Source: Pseudomonadota bacterium
GTDB lineage: Bacteria; Pseudomonadota; Gammaproteobacteria; Burkholderiales; Thiobacillaceae
Reading direction: 5' to 3'
Assembly (NCBI GenBank): GCA_021802945.1
Contig: JAJZRE010000009.1
Span: 1 to 49,913, forward strand
Length of the DNA stretch: 49,913 nucleotides
In this document: in pieces, positions 18,967 to 25,098 of the stretch
How positions within the stretch are numbered: position 1 is the stretch's first letter
Layout: every line of letters begins with the position of its first letter
Notes under the pieces: generated by a model
Told to the model about the DNA's origin: nothing
Seen by the model: only the letters and a program-made list of their open reading frames with translations
Database searches by the model: none
Made by a program: the position numbers and the translations under genes

Positions 18967-19007
18967 ATTAGGCGTCCGTCAAACAGCAATGCTGACCGCC
19001 TTTACTC

Positions 19008-20008
19008 GTGTTTAGTTTCTTCAAGCCGAAACCGCCTGCCGCCGAACCGGCCGCGCCCGTCGCGCCTGAGCCTGTCGAGTCGCGTCCCGGCTGGGCGCAG
19101 CGGCTCAAGCAGGGGCTCGCCAAGACCCGCGACAAGCTGGGCGGCCAACTGGCCGGCCTGTTCGGCGTCGGGCGCAAGATCGACGCCGGGCTGTTCGAGG
19201 AACTCGAAACCATCCTGATCACCGCCGACGTCGGCGTCGATGCCACCCATGCCCTGCTCGACACCCTGCAGAAGAAAGTGCGTCGTGAAAACCTCACCGA
19301 GGCCTCCGACCTGCAGGCCGCGCTGAAGGAGGCCCTGGTCGACCTGCTGACGCCGCTGCAGGCGCCGCTCGACGTCACCCCGCACAAGCCCTTCATCCTC
19401 ATGCTGGCCGGCGTCAACGGCGCCGGCAAGACCACGACCATCGGCAAGCTCGCCAGGCTCTACCAGTCGCAGGGGCTGTCGGTGCTGCTGGCGGCGGGCG
19501 ACACCTTCCGCGCGGCGGCGCGCGAGCAGCTGCAGGTCTGGGGCGAACGCAACAACGTCACCGTCGTGAGCCAGGAAAAAGGCGATTCCGCCGCGGTCAT
19601 CTACGACGCCATCCAGGCCGCGCGCGCGCGCAACATCGACGTCGTGCTGGCCGACACCGCCGGCCGTCTGCCGACGCAGCTGCATCTGATGGAAGAGATC
19701 AGGAAGGTCAAGCGCGTGATCGAGAAAACGGCCCCCGGCGCGCCGCACGAGGTGCTGCTGGTGCTCGACGCCAACACGGGCCAGAACGCCGTCACCCAGG
19801 TCAAGGCCTTCGACGATGCGCTCGGCGTGACCGGCCTGGCGCTGACCAAGCTCGACGGCACCGCCAAGGGCGGCGCCATCGCCGCGATCGCCCACGCCTG
19901 CTTGACGCGGCCGCGGCCGATCCCGGTGCGCTACATCGGCGTCGGCGAGACCGTGGACGACCTGCGGCCCTTCGATGCGCGCGAATTCGTCGAGGCGGTG
20001 TTCGCAGC

Positions 20009-20012
<4 letters not shown>
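19008..20012 (+). CDS. ftsY: Signal recognition particle receptor FtsY
   Basis: FtsY docks SRP-ribosome complexes at the inner membrane. The 334-aa product has a short Pro/Ala-rich acidic N-terminus in place of the long A domain of E. coli, then the N domain. The GTPase G domain follows: [45 protein letters not shown] and the closing [14 protein letters not shown]. The start is GTG at 19008 (MFSFFKPK), a typical FtsY beginning, without a good ribosome binding site. Its stop overlaps the ftsE start (ATGA). Confidence 0.96.
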
Positions 20013-20667
<655 letters not shown>

Positions 20668-20671
<4 letters not shown>

Positions 20672-21576
20672 TCGGCTGGCTGCGTCATCACAAGCATGCG
20701 GTGCTTGCCGCCCTGCGTCGCCTGGGCGCACAACCGGTCACGACGGTTCTGACCGCGCTCGCCATGGGCGTGGCGATCAGCCTGCCGAGCGGGCTGTATC
20801 TGGGACTGGGCAACCTCGCGCGGGTGGCGGGCGGCCTGCCGGCGCAGCCGGAAATCAGCCTGTTTCTCGATGCCGGCGCATCCGCCGAACAAAAACAGCT
20901 CATCGCCGCGCGGCTCAGGCAGCCCGATATCGCCCAGGCCCGCTACGTGCCCCGGGACGAGGCGCTGGCCGCCCTGAGCGCAGCGCAGGATCTGGCCGAC
21001 ATCACCGCCGGCCTGCCGGAGAATCCGCTACCGGACGCCTGGGTCGTGCGACCGCGGACCGCGTCGCGCGACGCGCTGGTGCGGCTCTCCGACAGCCTGG
21101 GCAAACTGCCGGGCGTAGCGGAAACCCATCTCGACAGCCAGTGGGCGGAGCGCCTGCAGGCCGCGCTCGCCATCGGCCGCATGGGCGTCTGGCTGCTGGG
21201 CACCCTGTTTGCCATTGCCCTGATCGCCATTTCGGGCAACGCCATCCGCGCTCAGGTGCTGGCCCGGCGCGACGAAATCCTGGTCAGCCGGCTGATCGGC
21301 GCCACCGATTGGCATATCCGCCGCCCGTTCCTCTATCTGGGCGCGCTGCAGGGCCTGCTCGGCGGGCTCGCTGCAGGCGGCGTGCTGGCTGCCGCCGGCG
21401 CGGCCTTGCATGCCCCGGTCGAACGCCTGGCAAGCCTCTATGGGTCGACCTTTCATCTGCTGCCACCGAGCGCGGCCGAAATCGCCGTCGTACTCGGCCT
21501 GACCACGCTATTCGGCTGGCTGGGCGCCTGGCTCTCGGTGACCCGGACCCTGCTCCAGGTCGAAACGGCGCGCTGA
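20668..21576 (+). CDS. ftsX: Cell division membrane protein FtsX
   Basis: FtsX is the four-helix inner-membrane partner of FtsE. The 302-aa product has a cytoplasmic N-terminus, a first helix around TVLTALAMGVAISLPSG, an extracytoplasmic loop domain (~60-160), and three C-terminal helices, with the FtsX-domain segment ARRDEILVSRLIGATDWHIRR. ATG 20668 has GGGGAGG upstream within ftsE. A longer frame starting at 19975 overlaps ftsE out of frame and is not real. Confidence 0.95.
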
Positions 21577-21604
21577 TCTCCCGTCCCGGGAACCCTTCAC
21601 GGGT

Positions 21605-21631
21605 TTAGCACTCTCAGCATCAGAGTGCTAA
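21605..21631 (+). promoter_or_regulatory. CIRCE element (HrcA operator) upstream of rpoH
   Basis: TTAGCACTC (21605-21613), nine spacer bases, then GAGTGCTAA (21623-21631). Both arms match the CIRCE consensus perfectly. CIRCE is bound by the heat-shock repressor HrcA. It lies 27 bases before the rpoH ATG, in the 82-base gap after ftsX, so HrcA should repress rpoH transcription. Confidence 0.95.
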
Positions 21632-21658
21632 ACTAGCAAAAAAGGGGGTTTTACACGC

Positions 21659-22504
21659 ATGAATCAATCGATGTCTTTACCCGTTCCTGCGGCCTACAGC
21701 CTGGATAGCTACATTCAGACCGTCAATCGCTACCCCATGCTCGGCATGGAGGAAGAACAGCAGCTGGCGCGTGCCTGGCACGACAAGCAGGATGTCGAGG
21801 CGGCGCGCCAACTCGTGGTATCGCACCTGCGTGTCGTGGTGAGCGTGGCGCGCCATTATCTGGGCTACGGACTGCCCCATGCCGACCTCATCCAGGAAGG
21901 CAATGTCGGCCTGATGAAGGCGGTGAAACGTTTCGATCCGGACCGCGGGGTGCGCCTGGTCTCGTTCGCGCTGCACTGGATCCGTGCCGAAATCCACGAA
22001 TACGTTCTGAAAAACTGGCGCCTGGTCAAGGTGGCGACCACCAAGTCGCAGCGCAAGCTGTTCTTCAACCTGCGCAGCCTGAAGCAGTCGCTCAATGCCC
22101 TGACGCTGCAGGAAGCCGACGCCATGGCGCGCGAGCTCAATGTCAGCCGCAAGGACGTGCTGGAAATGGAAACGCGGATGTCGGGCCACGATGTATCGAT
22201 CGATCCGGCCGTGGACGACGGCGAGGAAAGCTACAGTCCGTTAGCTTATCTGGCGAGCCCGGACGAAAATCCGGCCCAGGTGCTGGAACGCGAGCAGACC
22301 GAACGGCTGCGGCACGACGGGCTGAACAACGCGCTGGAAGACCTCGACGAGCGCAGCCGCCACATCATCCAGGCGCGCTGGCTGACCGAAGGCGAAGCCG
22401 CGACGCTTCATGAACTGGCTGCCGAATATGGCGTCTCCGCGGAGCGCATCCGGCAGATCGAAGCCCGCGCCCTTCAAAAAATGCGCGCAGCGATACCCGT
22501 TTAA
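21659..22504 (+). CDS. rpoH: RNA polymerase heat-shock sigma factor RpoH (sigma-32)
   Basis: Sigma-32 directs RNA polymerase to heat-shock promoters. The 281-aa product has region 2 (GNVGLMKAVKRFDPDRGVR and SFALHWIRAEI), the RpoH box QRKLFFNLR that separates it from other sigma-70 proteins, and region 4 with the helix-turn-helix TLHELAAEYGVSAERIRQIE. ATG 21659 follows a GGGGG run. It lies behind ftsYEX as in many proteobacteria, but with its own CIRCE-bearing upstream region, so HrcA control is expected in addition to any thermosensing of the mRNA. Confidence 0.96.
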   Translation: MNQSMSLPVPAAYSLDSYIQTVNRYPMLGMEEEQQLARAWHDKQDVEAARQLVVSHLRVVVSVARHYLGYGLPHADLIQEGNVGLMKAVKRFDPDRGVRLVSFALHWIRAEIHEYVLKNWRLVKVATTKSQRKLFFNLRSLKQSLNALTLQEADAMARELNVSRKDVLEMETRMSGHDVSIDPAVDDGEESYSPLAYLASPDENPAQVLEREQTERLRHDGLNNALEDLDERSRHIIQARWLTEGEAATLHELAAEYGVSAERIRQIEARALQKMRAAIPV

Positions 22505-22510
22505 GCATCT

Positions 22511-22562
22511 CCCCCGCCAACGACAAGGCCCCGCAACTGCGGGGCCTTGTCGTTGGCGGGGG
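22511..22562. terminator. Perfect 24-bp hairpin, bidirectional terminator between rpoH and the cco genes
   Basis: Arms 22511-22534 and 22539-22562 are fully complementary around the loop AACT. The inner part (GGCCCCGC/GCGGGGCC) is followed on either strand by TTGTCGTT, a poor U-rich tail, and the stem extends through that tail. It lies between the convergent rpoH and the small cco-linked gene, so it probably ends both transcripts. Confidence 0.75.
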
Positions 22563-22567
22563 GCCAA

Positions 22568-22675
22568 TCAGAAAAACGAGCCGATCAGGACCGACAGGAT
22601 GCTGATCCATGCCCAGATGGTCAATCCTACGACCACCACCATGGGGAAACCCTGAAAAGTCAGAAGCTGTTTCAT
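22568..22675 (-). CDS. 35-aa single-helix membrane protein at the end of the ccoGHS unit
   Basis: A small gene: ATG at 22675 with GGAG eight bases upstream, 35 codons, then TGA. The product starts MKQLLTFQGFPM, has one strongly hydrophobic helix (VVVVGLTIWAWISILSVL) and ends IGSFF. It lies 34 bases after ccoS on the same strand and directly before the terminator hairpin, so it is the last gene of the ccoG-ccoH-ccoS unit. Size and position recall the small cbb3 subunit CcoM, but the sequence does not resemble the Pseudomonas stutzeri CcoM I know. A structural or assembly role in the cbb3 oxidase is inference. Confidence 0.7.
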   Translation of the reverse strand: MKQLLTFQGFPMVVVVGLTIWAWISILSVLIGSFF

Positions 22676-22709
22676 TGTGCGCACTCCATTAAGGTTGATG
22701 AATTTTAAT

Positions 22710-22895
22710 TTATTCGTCTTTGCTGCTCAAGCGCCGCGTCGGCAGCAGCGGATCATCGTCATCCATCAGGATGCGTTCGGCCGGGCCTTCCAGATCGTCG
22801 AACTGGCCGCTTTTGATCGACCAGAACACACCCAGGACGATCAGCAGCACGAATACGCCGGACAGCAGGAACAGGAATCCCAGGATGCCGCTCAT
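22710..22895 (-). CDS. ccoS: cbb3-type oxidase assembly protein CcoS
   Basis: CcoS (61 aa) is a one-helix inner-membrane protein needed for cofactor insertion into cbb3 oxidase. Its hydrophobic N-terminus leads into the family signature FWSIKSGQFDDLEGPAERIL, followed by an acidic stretch (MDDDDP). ATG at 22895 overlaps the stop of the FixH-like gene (ATGA). Confidence 0.95.
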   Translation of the reverse strand: MSGILGFLFLLSGVFVLLIVLGVFWSIKSGQFDDLEGPAERILMDDDDPLLPTRRLSSKDE

Positions 22896-23665
22896 GGCAG
22901 CACCAACTCCTGCGTATGCTGATAATGCAGGACGTGATCACGCGAAAGCCGAAGCTCGACCAGCCAGCGTCCGTTCGCAGGCAAGCGCAGCGCCCCGCCG
23001 TAGACGCCGGCATCGAGTTCCGCCAGCGGCAGGATGAGCTCCGCCCGCACTGCGCCAGGACGCTGCAGGCGGAGCTCGGCCTCGACGCCGTCGACGGGCA
23101 GGCCGGTGTGATTCCTGACCCGGACCCGGACAGCCCGCTCGAAGCCGTTGCCGTCCAGGCCGCTGACGTCGATGTCCCAGCCAAGCTCGGCCTCGCGGTG
23201 CGCCTTGGACAGCTCCGACGAAATTGCGGTGGCCGCTTCCTGATTGTGAGGAACCACGCCGGAGAATCCGCTGTAGACCGCCCCGCCATGGCTGCCCAGC
23301 CACCAGCGGCCGATCGGCTCCGGCAGGCCCTTGTTCGCGATGTAAAGAAAGCCCGCCATGAGCACCGTCAGCCCGGCGAAAAACAGCATGAGCAGCTTCG
23401 GGGCCCAGTGCATGCGCCCGCCACGCCGCCGGAACATGGTCAGCGCAAACAGCACCAGCGCCGTCGCGAAGAAAACCGAGATGTGGATGGCCACCACATC
23501 GAGCCCCGGCCAGCGGCCGATGATAAGGGCGAAATACGCGACCAGGGGAATGCCCCCCGCCAGAACGGCACGCAGGATCGGCGGCAGGCTGCGGACGAGC
23601 CCCCCGATGGCGTACAGGACAAGCACGGCGGCGAGTCCGCCGAACAGGGTGATCATCGTATTCAT
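22892..23665 (-). CDS. ccoH: FixH/CcoH-like oxidase assembly protein with extra membrane helices
   Basis: FixH/CcoH proteins act in cbb3 oxidase assembly. This 257-aa product is longer than the usual ~150-170 aa. Residues 1-~115 hold about four membrane helices (LFGGLAAVLVLYAIGGLV, an ILRAV... helix, HISVFFATALVLFALTMF, LLMLFFAGLTVLMAGFLYIA). Residues ~130-257 form a FixH-like periplasmic beta domain (VRVRVRNHTGLPVDGVEAEL, LDAGVYGGALRLPANG). It overlaps ccoG upstream and ccoS downstream by ATGA junctions. The copper ATPase gene ccoI, normally next, is missing. The FixH assignment rests on the C-terminal domain and the position. Confidence 0.8.
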   Translation of the reverse strand: MNTMITLFGGLAAVLVLYAIGGLVRSLPPILRAVLAGGIPLVAYFALIIGRWPGLDVVAIHISVFFATALVLFALTMFRRRGGRMHWAPKLLMLFFAGLTVLMAGFLYIANKGLPEPIGRWWLGSHGGAVYSGFSGVVPHNQEAATAISSELSKAHREAELGWDIDVSGLDGNGFERAVRVRVRNHTGLPVDGVEAELRLQRPGAVRAELILPLAELDAGVYGGALRLPANGRWLVELRLSRDHVLHYQHTQELVLP

Positions 23666-25098
23666 GGACGTATTCCGGGTGCGTCGAAACGGACGGTTTC
23701 GCTGCGGGCTTCCGCAGGCTTGCCGAGCGGGGTAATGACCAGTTCAAAGTGCTGCGTTCGCGCCGCCAGCGCCGGGGGCAGCCGCACGCTGGCCTGGACA
23801 AGCCCGCTGTGTCCGGGCTTGACCGTGATCTGCCTGAAATTTCCCAGATCCAGCGCGCCTGCCGGCACGCCGTTCGCGCTGATCACGTAGGTCTGATCCT
23901 GCGCGGCCTTGTTGGTGATGTGAATCTGGTAGCGATTGCGGATGTCGCCGTTCGACAGCACGACATACAAAGGCTGCCGAATCTGGTTCACGGTTCGATC
24001 GTAGCTGCCGCGGGAACCGATGCTGTAGACGAGGTAGGCACTCATCAGGATCAGGGCCACGCCATAGCCGATGGTTTTCAGACGCTTCCATTCGATCTTG
24101 GGCGCAGCGGGCTCGGGCGAAGCCAGATTCCTTTCCGAGTCGTAGCGGATCAGGCCGCGCGGAAAACCGAACGAATCCATGATGGTGTTGCACGCGTCGA
24201 TGCACAGGCCGCAGGAGATGCACTTGTATTGAAGTCCGTCACGAATATCGATGCCGGCCGGACACACCTGCACGCACAGACCGCAGTCGACGCAGTCGCC
24301 GAAGCCCTTTTCACGGCGCTCGGCCAGGGTGCGCTGACCGGCGCGGGCGCTGGCACGGCCATGGGCCGCTTCGCCACGTTTTGCGTCGTAATGCACCGCC
24401 AGCGTTTCAGGCTCGTACATCACGCTCTGAAAGCGGCCGTACGGACAGACATAGGTGCAGATCTGCTCGCGCATGAGACCCGCTGCGGCATACGTCGAGA
24501 CGGTGAGGATGCTGACCGTGATATAGGCGGCCGCATTGGCCTGGCCGCTGAAGAAGTCGAGCACCAGTTGGGGCGCGTACGTGAAGTAGGCGACGAAGGT
24601 CATGCCGGTCCAGAACGATGCCAGCAGCCATAGCGCATGCGTCCCGCCGACCTTGAGCACCTTTTCACGATCCCACGGCTGGCGATAGAGGCGGACGCGT
24701 GCGGGGCGTTCGCCCTGGATCGTGTGTTCGATCCAGATGAAGAAGTCGGTCCACAGCGTCTGGAAACAGAAGTAGCCGCAAAACGCGCGCCCCACCAGGC
24801 CGGTGACGAAGAACAGCAGGATGGCTGCGATGAACAACAGCAGGGCCAGCCAGATGACGTCCTGCGGATAGACCGTCAGGCCGAAGATCAGGAAACGTCG
24901 GCCAGGCAGATCAAACAGCACCGCCTGGGCAGGCGCATCCAGCCGCGACCATGGCAGCCATGGCGCCAGAAAATAAATCGCATAGGCCAGCGCCAGCACC
25001 GTAGTCTTGAAGCGGCGAAACCGTCCCTTCACCGAGCGGGTAAAGATGGGAATGCGCTTCTGGTAAAGCCCGAGCTGTTCTTCTAAGCCTGTTTGCAT
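23662..25098 (-). CDS. ccoG: cbb3 oxidase assembly protein CcoG (polyferredoxin)
   Basis: CcoG (478 aa) is an inner-membrane iron-sulfur protein that reduces Cu(II) for the cbb3 copper supply. It shows several membrane helices, C-x3-C in FCGYFCFQ, ICTYVCPYGRFQ, and two cytoplasmic [4Fe-4S] motifs, CVDCGLCVQVCPAGIDIR and CISCGLCIDAC. A C-terminal Ig-like periplasmic domain follows (PLYVVLSNGDIRNRYQIHI). It starts at 25098, 74 bases after the ccoP stop and past a terminator-like hairpin, so it may have its own promoter or rely on read-through. It overlaps the FixH-like gene downstream. Confidence 0.95.
   Translation of the reverse strand: MQTGLEEQLGLYQKRIPIFTRSVKGRFRRFKTTVLALAYAIYFLAPWLPWSRLDAPAQAVLFDLPGRRFLIFGLTVYPQDVIWLALLLFIAAILLFFVTGLVGRAFCGYFCFQTLWTDFFIWIEHTIQGERPARVRLYRQPWDREKVLKVGGTHALWLLASFWTGMTFVAYFTYAPQLVLDFFSGQANAAAYITVSILTVSTYAAAGLMREQICTYVCPYGRFQSVMYEPETLAVHYDAKRGEAAHGRASARAGQRTLAERREKGFGDCVDCGLCVQVCPAGIDIRDGLQYKCISCGLCIDACNTIMDSFGFPRGLIRYDSERNLASPEPAAPKIEWKRLKTIGYGVALILMSAYLVYSIGSRGSYDRTVNQIRQPLYVVLSNGDIRNRYQIHITNKAAQDQTYVISANGVPAGALDLGNFRQITVKPGHSGLVQASVRLPPALAARTQHFELVITPLGKPAEARSETVRFDAPGIRP

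Follow-up and report, generated by a model that had tools for sequence, protein, structure and literature searches.

A CIRCE element upstream of rpoH and its overlap with candidate promoter motifs in a Thiobacillus-like bacterium and related genomes

The rpoH locus and the heat-shock genes of the genome

The window, that is the whole stretch of 49,913 bases that was analysed, carries the gene order ftsY-ftsE-ftsX-rpoH on its plus strand. The three upstream genes, ftsY (positions 19008–20012; TIGR00064, 343.5 bits), ftsE (20009–20671; TIGR02673, 274.4 bits), and ftsX (20665–21576; TIGR00439, 270.3 bits; start codon not fixed), all score above the cut-offs of their families. The open reading frame at 21659–22504 is an RpoH equivalog, the heat-shock sigma factor sigma-32, with 407.8 bits for TIGR02392 (cut-off 323.1), 425.3 bits for NF005143 (cut-off 241), and the Sigma70 regions r2 and r4. 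Its upstream neighbour ftsX lies on the same strand, with 82 bases between the ftsX stop codon, ending at 21576, and the rpoH ATG at 21659. The four nearest named rpoH genes, 86–92% identical, come from three Thiobacillus genomes and one Hydrogenophilales metagenome genome, so the host is Thiobacillus-like.

On the 3′ side of rpoH, a long and near-perfect GC-rich hairpin directly follows the gene (about 22512–22562), with no T-run after it on the plus strand. A search of positions 19000–24000 against Rfam gave no family at its gathering score; six matches fell below the threshold, four of them on this hairpin. Farther on, a mini-ORF of the minus strand (22568–22675), located between rpoH and the cbb3 oxidase genes, would encode a single-pass membrane protein of 35 residues. 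It recurs at five of the seven loci inspected (L005–L009 among L004–L010) and has no match in Pfam or NCBIfam. ccoG and ccoP lie nearby, and the mini-ORF is a candidate for a small protein belonging to this oxidase cluster.

Between ftsX and rpoH, at 21605–21631 of the plus strand, lies a CIRCE element, the predicted operator of HrcA (TTAGCACTC-N9-GAGTGCTAA). The full element reads TTAGCACTC-TCAGCATCA-GAGTGCTAA, in which all 18 arm bases are exact (0 mismatches), and 27 bases separate its end from the rpoH ATG. It is kept at related rpoH loci and is the sole site with at most three mismatches in the window, which was scanned in full; a chance occurrence was ruled out by 0 occurrences in 100 shuffles. 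Given the exact arms, this distance, and the scoring of the open reading frame as RpoH, the claim of an earlier note on this DNA that a perfect CIRCE stands directly upstream of rpoH is borne out.

The assembly searched (2.55 Mb, 87.6% complete) contains hrcA (TIGR00331, 318.1 bits; cut-off 197.2), for which the earlier note had proposed a search together with one for CIRCE at groES and dnaK. It also contains rpoE (TIGR02939, 314.6 bits, above the cut-off). One other CIRCE with at most three mismatches is present, an exact one upstream of groES-groEL, and a sigma-32-like promoter (TTGAAA ... CCCCTA) immediately precedes it. The groESL half of that search was therefore positive, but neither dnaK nor hrcA has a CIRCE at up to three mismatches in this 87.6% complete assembly. 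At dnaK, the sigma-32-like promoter is CTTGAAT-N13-CCCCACAT. The earlier proposal that the two heat-shock circuits stand in series, HrcA acting on sigma-32 and sigma-32 on the chaperone genes, agrees with dnaK, which has such a promoter and no CIRCE at this threshold, but not with groESL. As groESL carries both a sigma-32-like promoter and CIRCE, the circuit would form a feed-forward loop and not a simple series. At another locus (L003, minus strand), a run of N beside hrcA has on either side a copy of the beginning of the following, ferrochelatase-like gene, an apparent assembly artefact.

Promoter-like motifs overlapping the operator

An alignment was made of 109 rpoH CIRCEs, namely that of the window, 78 from named loci, and 30 from order-wide loci, with 27 groES CIRCEs as a control. 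For the control, 30 groES loci were fetched, and the 27 having a CIRCE with at most three mismatches were used. The three dropped were L129, whose contig lacks the upstream region because groES already starts at its base 4, and L132 (genome G034) and L138 (G019), both from hrcA-negative genomes, where groES has no CIRCE at this threshold in the fetched locus, which matches the loss at rpoH. Twenty class-wide loci, hand-chosen from the 118 matches outside the order and all on the plus strand, bring the total to 129 rpoH loci; the class is here Gammaproteobacteria in a taxonomy that includes the betaproteobacteria. All the promoter and conservation statistics given below come from related sequences, which are not independent.

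In the rpoH alignment, the right arm and its flank read TGC-TAAnAT, an extended -10, located 18 bases from TTAGCA. In the window, the candidate sigma-70 -35 is thus TTAGCA, that is the outer part of the left CIRCE arm (21605–21610, plus strand), and the candidate extended -10 is TGC-TAAACT (21626–21634, plus strand), made up of the right CIRCE arm and three further bases. TGC is found in 109/109 sites, and the first two bases that the -10 would have, T and A, never vary. The final T of the -10, third base to the right of CIRCE, is present at all 109 rpoH sites vs. 4 of the 27 groES sites, and also in 20/20 class-wide loci, hence at 129/129 rpoH sites; the -10 ends with AT at 103/109 rpoH vs. 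4/27 groES sites. No conservation of the mirror flank on the left of CIRCE was found among the 109 aligned sites. Within the arms, the third base of the left one is G in 15/109 and the last base of the right one is G or T in 7/109, and the -35 variant TTGGCA occurs in 12/109 loci. The -10 hexamer has four or five of the six consensus bases in 108/109 loci; the form of the window, TAAACT, is a minority one (3/109), with three to four of six. Taken alone, TTAGCA makes a weak -35 at a spacing of 18 bases, and the -10 of the window is below consensus.

A second promoter-like pair, of the sigma-E type, runs into the same element. The candidate -35, GGAACCC, is located at 21589–21595 (plus strand), at the same offset as in the relatives L004–L007. 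The candidate -10, TCTCA (21612–21616, plus strand), begins 16 bases after it and is made up of the end of the left CIRCE arm and three spacer bases. Against a consensus of GGAACTT and a TCnnA-like -10, the window motif GGAACCC-N16-TCTCA has 5/7 consensus bases in the -35 and 3/4 in the -10. A GGAAC-like -35 is found within 35 bases upstream of CIRCE at 72/109 rpoH vs. 2/27 groES sites, and is absent from the searched span at 43 of the 129 rpoH loci.

The distance from this -35 to CIRCE varies among loci and the TC of the sigma-E -10 shifts along with the -35. TC stands exactly 16 bases past the -35 at 57 of the 72 loci, where 5000 permutations gave 35.5 on average and 44 at most. At offset −12, TC falls inside the CIRCE spacer in 25/26 loci and the final A is present in 26/26, vs. 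a TC at that place in 9/103 other rpoH and 1/27 groES loci. At offset −28, the -10 is located just before CIRCE (5/5), and at offset −17 TC fits a 17-base spacer (0/10 at 16). At offset −16, that of the window, TC belongs to the invariant left-arm sequence, and the placement of the -35 and the spacer A alone are informative; this A is found at 39/46 loci with offsets −16 or −17, vs. 9/83 other rpoH and 3/27 groES loci. The best sigma-E motif scores at least 9 at 39/79 loci (shuffle mean 0.37, maximum 3) and at 14/20 class-wide loci (shuffle mean 0.185, maximum 3). Because the best match stands at offset −16 in 13 of the 20 class-wide loci, this register may be ancestral. At three Alcaligenaceae-type loci (L069, L078, and L082), the motif lies directly before CIRCE.

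The earlier note had described the operator as having no other promoter motif. The analysis gives no support for this, as two candidate motifs, one a sigma-E-type pair and the other an extended -10, share bases with CIRCE, both being below consensus in the window (GGAACCC; TAAACT). As for sigma-32 autoregulation of rpoH, it was rejected as a general rule, a CTTGAAA-like -35 being found at 6/109 rpoH vs. 21/27 groES sites.

Distribution of the rpoH operator and of hrcA

Among the 80 named rpoH loci listed, 78 carry a CIRCE of at most three mismatches in the 400 bases before the matched start, and the two others have four (L017) and seven (L025) mismatches. A strict pattern was also defined, in which both six-base CIRCE cores are followed, 256–316 bases downstream, by an RpoH-coding motif; the spacing is limited, so that a miss does not mean absence. 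The strict pattern occurs in 186 of 300 genomes of the order, the reversed-pattern columns being all zero. It occurs in 121/274 genomes of a class sample (118/271 without three genomes of the window's order) and in 7/150 of a phylum sample, with 0/113 in other classes. The earlier note had named betaproteobacteria for a predicted link between HrcA and rpoH; that scope was too narrow, since 118 of the 271 class genomes outside the order also have the pattern. In one genome (G047, contigs C23 and C43), two CIRCE-rpoH matches are present, corresponding to a second rpoH or to contamination (3%).

A match to hrcA is found in 264 of the 300 genomes of the order, 262 of them above the cut-off. The strict pattern is present in 185/264 hrcA-positive genomes, and missing from the other 79, vs. 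1/36 hrcA-negative ones (Fisher 1.1e-15; counts and tests ignore phylogeny); the single hrcA-negative genome with the pattern, G246, is 86% complete. The rpoH operator is thus conserved and is missing where hrcA is missing, in keeping with the HrcA-rpoH link put forward earlier. Three genera hold both states. In g38, G034 and G256 lack both hrcA and the pattern, and G079, G121, G160, G196, G226, and G286 have both. Likewise, both are missing from G115 and G190 and present in G251 and G281 for g77, and for g102 missing from G172 and present in G205.

Thirty of the 36 hrcA-negative genomes were surveyed further, leaving out G052, G126, G144, G212, G246, and G259 (78–88% complete). A full-score rpoH was found in 29 of the 30, with a weak match only in G127. 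None of these 29 genomes has a CIRCE with at most three mismatches within 260 bases of rpoH, the closest having five. A sigma-E motif scoring at least 9 is present in six of them (G256, G034, G115, G296, G262, and G130), at about 200 bases in G262 and G130, where it may be due to chance, and is absent at rpoH in the other 23/29. In G034 and G256, the CIRCE arms have decayed (five to six mismatches), and GGAACTT-N16-TCATA and TAAAAT are still in place. Only these two genomes, both of one genus, clearly keep the promoter once the operator is lost, which is an illustration, not a rule.

Predicted regulation of rpoH and comparison with known systems

As judged from these sequences, the predicted control of rpoH by HrcA in this genome is well supported. 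The best explanation, which we hold to be probable, is that the element combines an HrcA operator with a core promoter and that HrcA would block two promoters. Two promoters that overlap each other would drive rpoH. In the first, a housekeeping promoter, the two CIRCE arms and three flanking bases would supply the -35 and the extended -10; the second, of the sigma-E type, would have its -35 upstream and its -10 running into CIRCE. Since CIRCE spans the first from -35 to -10 and overlaps the -10 of the second, bound HrcA would keep the polymerase off both. As long as folding is healthy, GroE would keep HrcA active and bound to CIRCE, and both promoters would be shut. Once GroE is filled by unfolded protein, or HrcA is inactivated by heat, the block would be lifted and rpoH transcribed, with sigma-E, and so envelope stress, also helping to set the level. 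Sigma-32 would then act on dnaK and, together with the relief from HrcA, on groESL. Finally, new GroE would restore HrcA, closing the feed-forward loop. The operator, the genes, the promoter-like motifs, their conservation, and the joint absence of CIRCE and hrcA are read from the DNA, and the help of GroE to HrcA, the heat inactivation of HrcA, and the transcription of rpoH by sigma-E are taken from papers on other species. For the present organism, we infer HrcA binding, occlusion of both promoters, the start sites, and the direction of regulation.

The element could also be a plain HrcA operator on one housekeeping promoter, the sigma-E-like motif being unused in this species and envelope stress having no influence. 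The -35 of the window is indeed GGAACCC and not GGAACTT, and the 43/129 rpoH loci devoid of a GGAAC-like -35 still keep CIRCE and the -10 T. However, the same sigma-E register is found in L004–L007 and at 13/20 class-wide loci, the spacer A tracks the register (39/46 vs. 9/83), and rpoE is present in the genome, which together make this reading unlikely. The conserved bases to the right of CIRCE abut the right arm at every aligned rpoH site and might be an extended contact of HrcA, with no -10 at all. Against this, the mirror bases on the left are not conserved, and TAAAAT is retained in the hrcA-negative G034 and G256 next to decayed arms. An extended HrcA half-site was moreover rejected on the groES control, where CIRCEs of the same order mostly lack the T (4/27), and we give this reading very little credit.

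Finally, rpoH could be expressed mainly by read-through from ftsYEX, with heat control by an mRNA thermometer of the E. coli type and CIRCE having a minor role. The ftsX-rpoH gap, just 82 bases on a same strand, would allow it. However, no Rfam family reaches its gathering score between 19000 and 24000, and the operator is retained where hrcA is retained. In addition, a thermometer near the start codon was rejected, five Thiobacillus-type leaders with 120 coding bases being no more stable than base-shuffled sequences. This possibility appears highly improbable.

The combined operator and core promoter remains our preferred reading. Its wider form is a three-layer element, in which an HrcA operator and two promoters, one of the sigma-E type and one of the sigma-70 extended -10 type, lie within about 45 bases, ancestral to much of the class and lost several times with hrcA; we would give it an even chance. 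The 43/129 loci without a GGAAC-like -35 and the 23/29 hrcA-negative genomes without a sigma-E motif scoring at least 9 speak against such an element being universal. If the three-layer reading is true, the sigma-E -10 at rpoH lies partly or wholly in the nine-base CIRCE spacer, which is supposed to be free, and HrcA gates the transcription of sigma-32 at the basal level as well as under envelope stress, so that the full response of rpoH to envelope stress occurs only with GroE overload. Chaperonin load, envelope stress, and sigma-32 synthesis would be coupled at one site of about 45 bases, and base-by-base predictions follow. More generally, the comparison suggests that HrcA controls the heat-shock sigma factor itself in many beta- and gammaproteobacteria, by way of an operator merged with the promoters of its gene.

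CIRCE upstream of rpoH was reportedly predicted by Permina and Gelfand in 2003 in beta-, gamma-, and epsilonproteobacteria. In the same order, the 27 groESL CIRCEs offer the closest comparison, with the same operator and presumably the same repressor, but they stand directly after a sigma-32-type promoter (CTTGAAA-like -35 at 21/27, vs. 6/109 at rpoH) and have no fused -10. In E. coli, P3 is the sigma-E promoter of rpoH, and the likeness would lie in a sigma-E-type promoter driving this gene. The difference is that E. coli has neither CIRCE nor HrcA there: to our knowledge, its heat-shock circuit has no HrcA, and the control genomes matching the hrcA family do not include E. coli, in line with the earlier statement that enterobacterial rpoH is not under HrcA.

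In Geobacter sulfurreducens, an exact CIRCE was predicted 51 bases before rpoH, and groESL has a CIRCE too, as in the genome studied here, but the hrcA-grpE-dnaK-dnaJ operon also carries one; the accessible part of this account mentions neither promoter overlap nor a sigma-E motif (PMC545781). CIRCE before rpoH is therefore a known prediction, for Geobacter (PMC545781) and reportedly for betaproteobacteria, and the Geobacter account is its sole description found in the literature searched, most subscription journals being outside that scope. The accessible parts of PMC2194791, PMC3135505, and PMC10696704 hold nothing bearing on an HrcA-rpoH link. Within the same scope, no description of the nesting of CIRCE and promoters at rpoH was found. 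As far as searched, what is new is that CIRCE is fused at single-base scale with two types of candidate promoter, that this fusion is conserved class-wide as judged against groES, and that CIRCE and hrcA are absent together. For Campylobacter jejuni HrcA at groESL, binding to the core promoter, stimulation by GroE, and loss of DNA binding with heat were described, all of which resemble the present proposal; however, according to the accessible text, HrcA acts there along with HspR on a chaperone operon and not on a sigma-factor gene (PMC8533110).

In Bordetella bronchiseptica, SigE transcribes the fam (rpoH) promoter in vitro, and E. coli rpoH P3 served as a reporter in the same work (PMC3490749). 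As with the candidate motif of the window, a sigma-E-type promoter lies directly upstream of a betaproteobacterial rpoH, and HrcA and CIRCE are mentioned 0 times in the accessible part of that account (PMC3490749). Because the three Alcaligenaceae-type loci have the motif directly before CIRCE, a similar overlap of CIRCE and sigma-E promoter is likely in Bordetella, by analogy. In B. pseudomallei, a heat-inducible promoter of rpoH is reportedly under RpoE control (Vanaporn 2008, cited in the accessible part of PMC5552950). The sigma-E control of rpoH in Bordetella and Burkholderia, studied without reference to HrcA in the accessible parts of these sources, may depend on HrcA.
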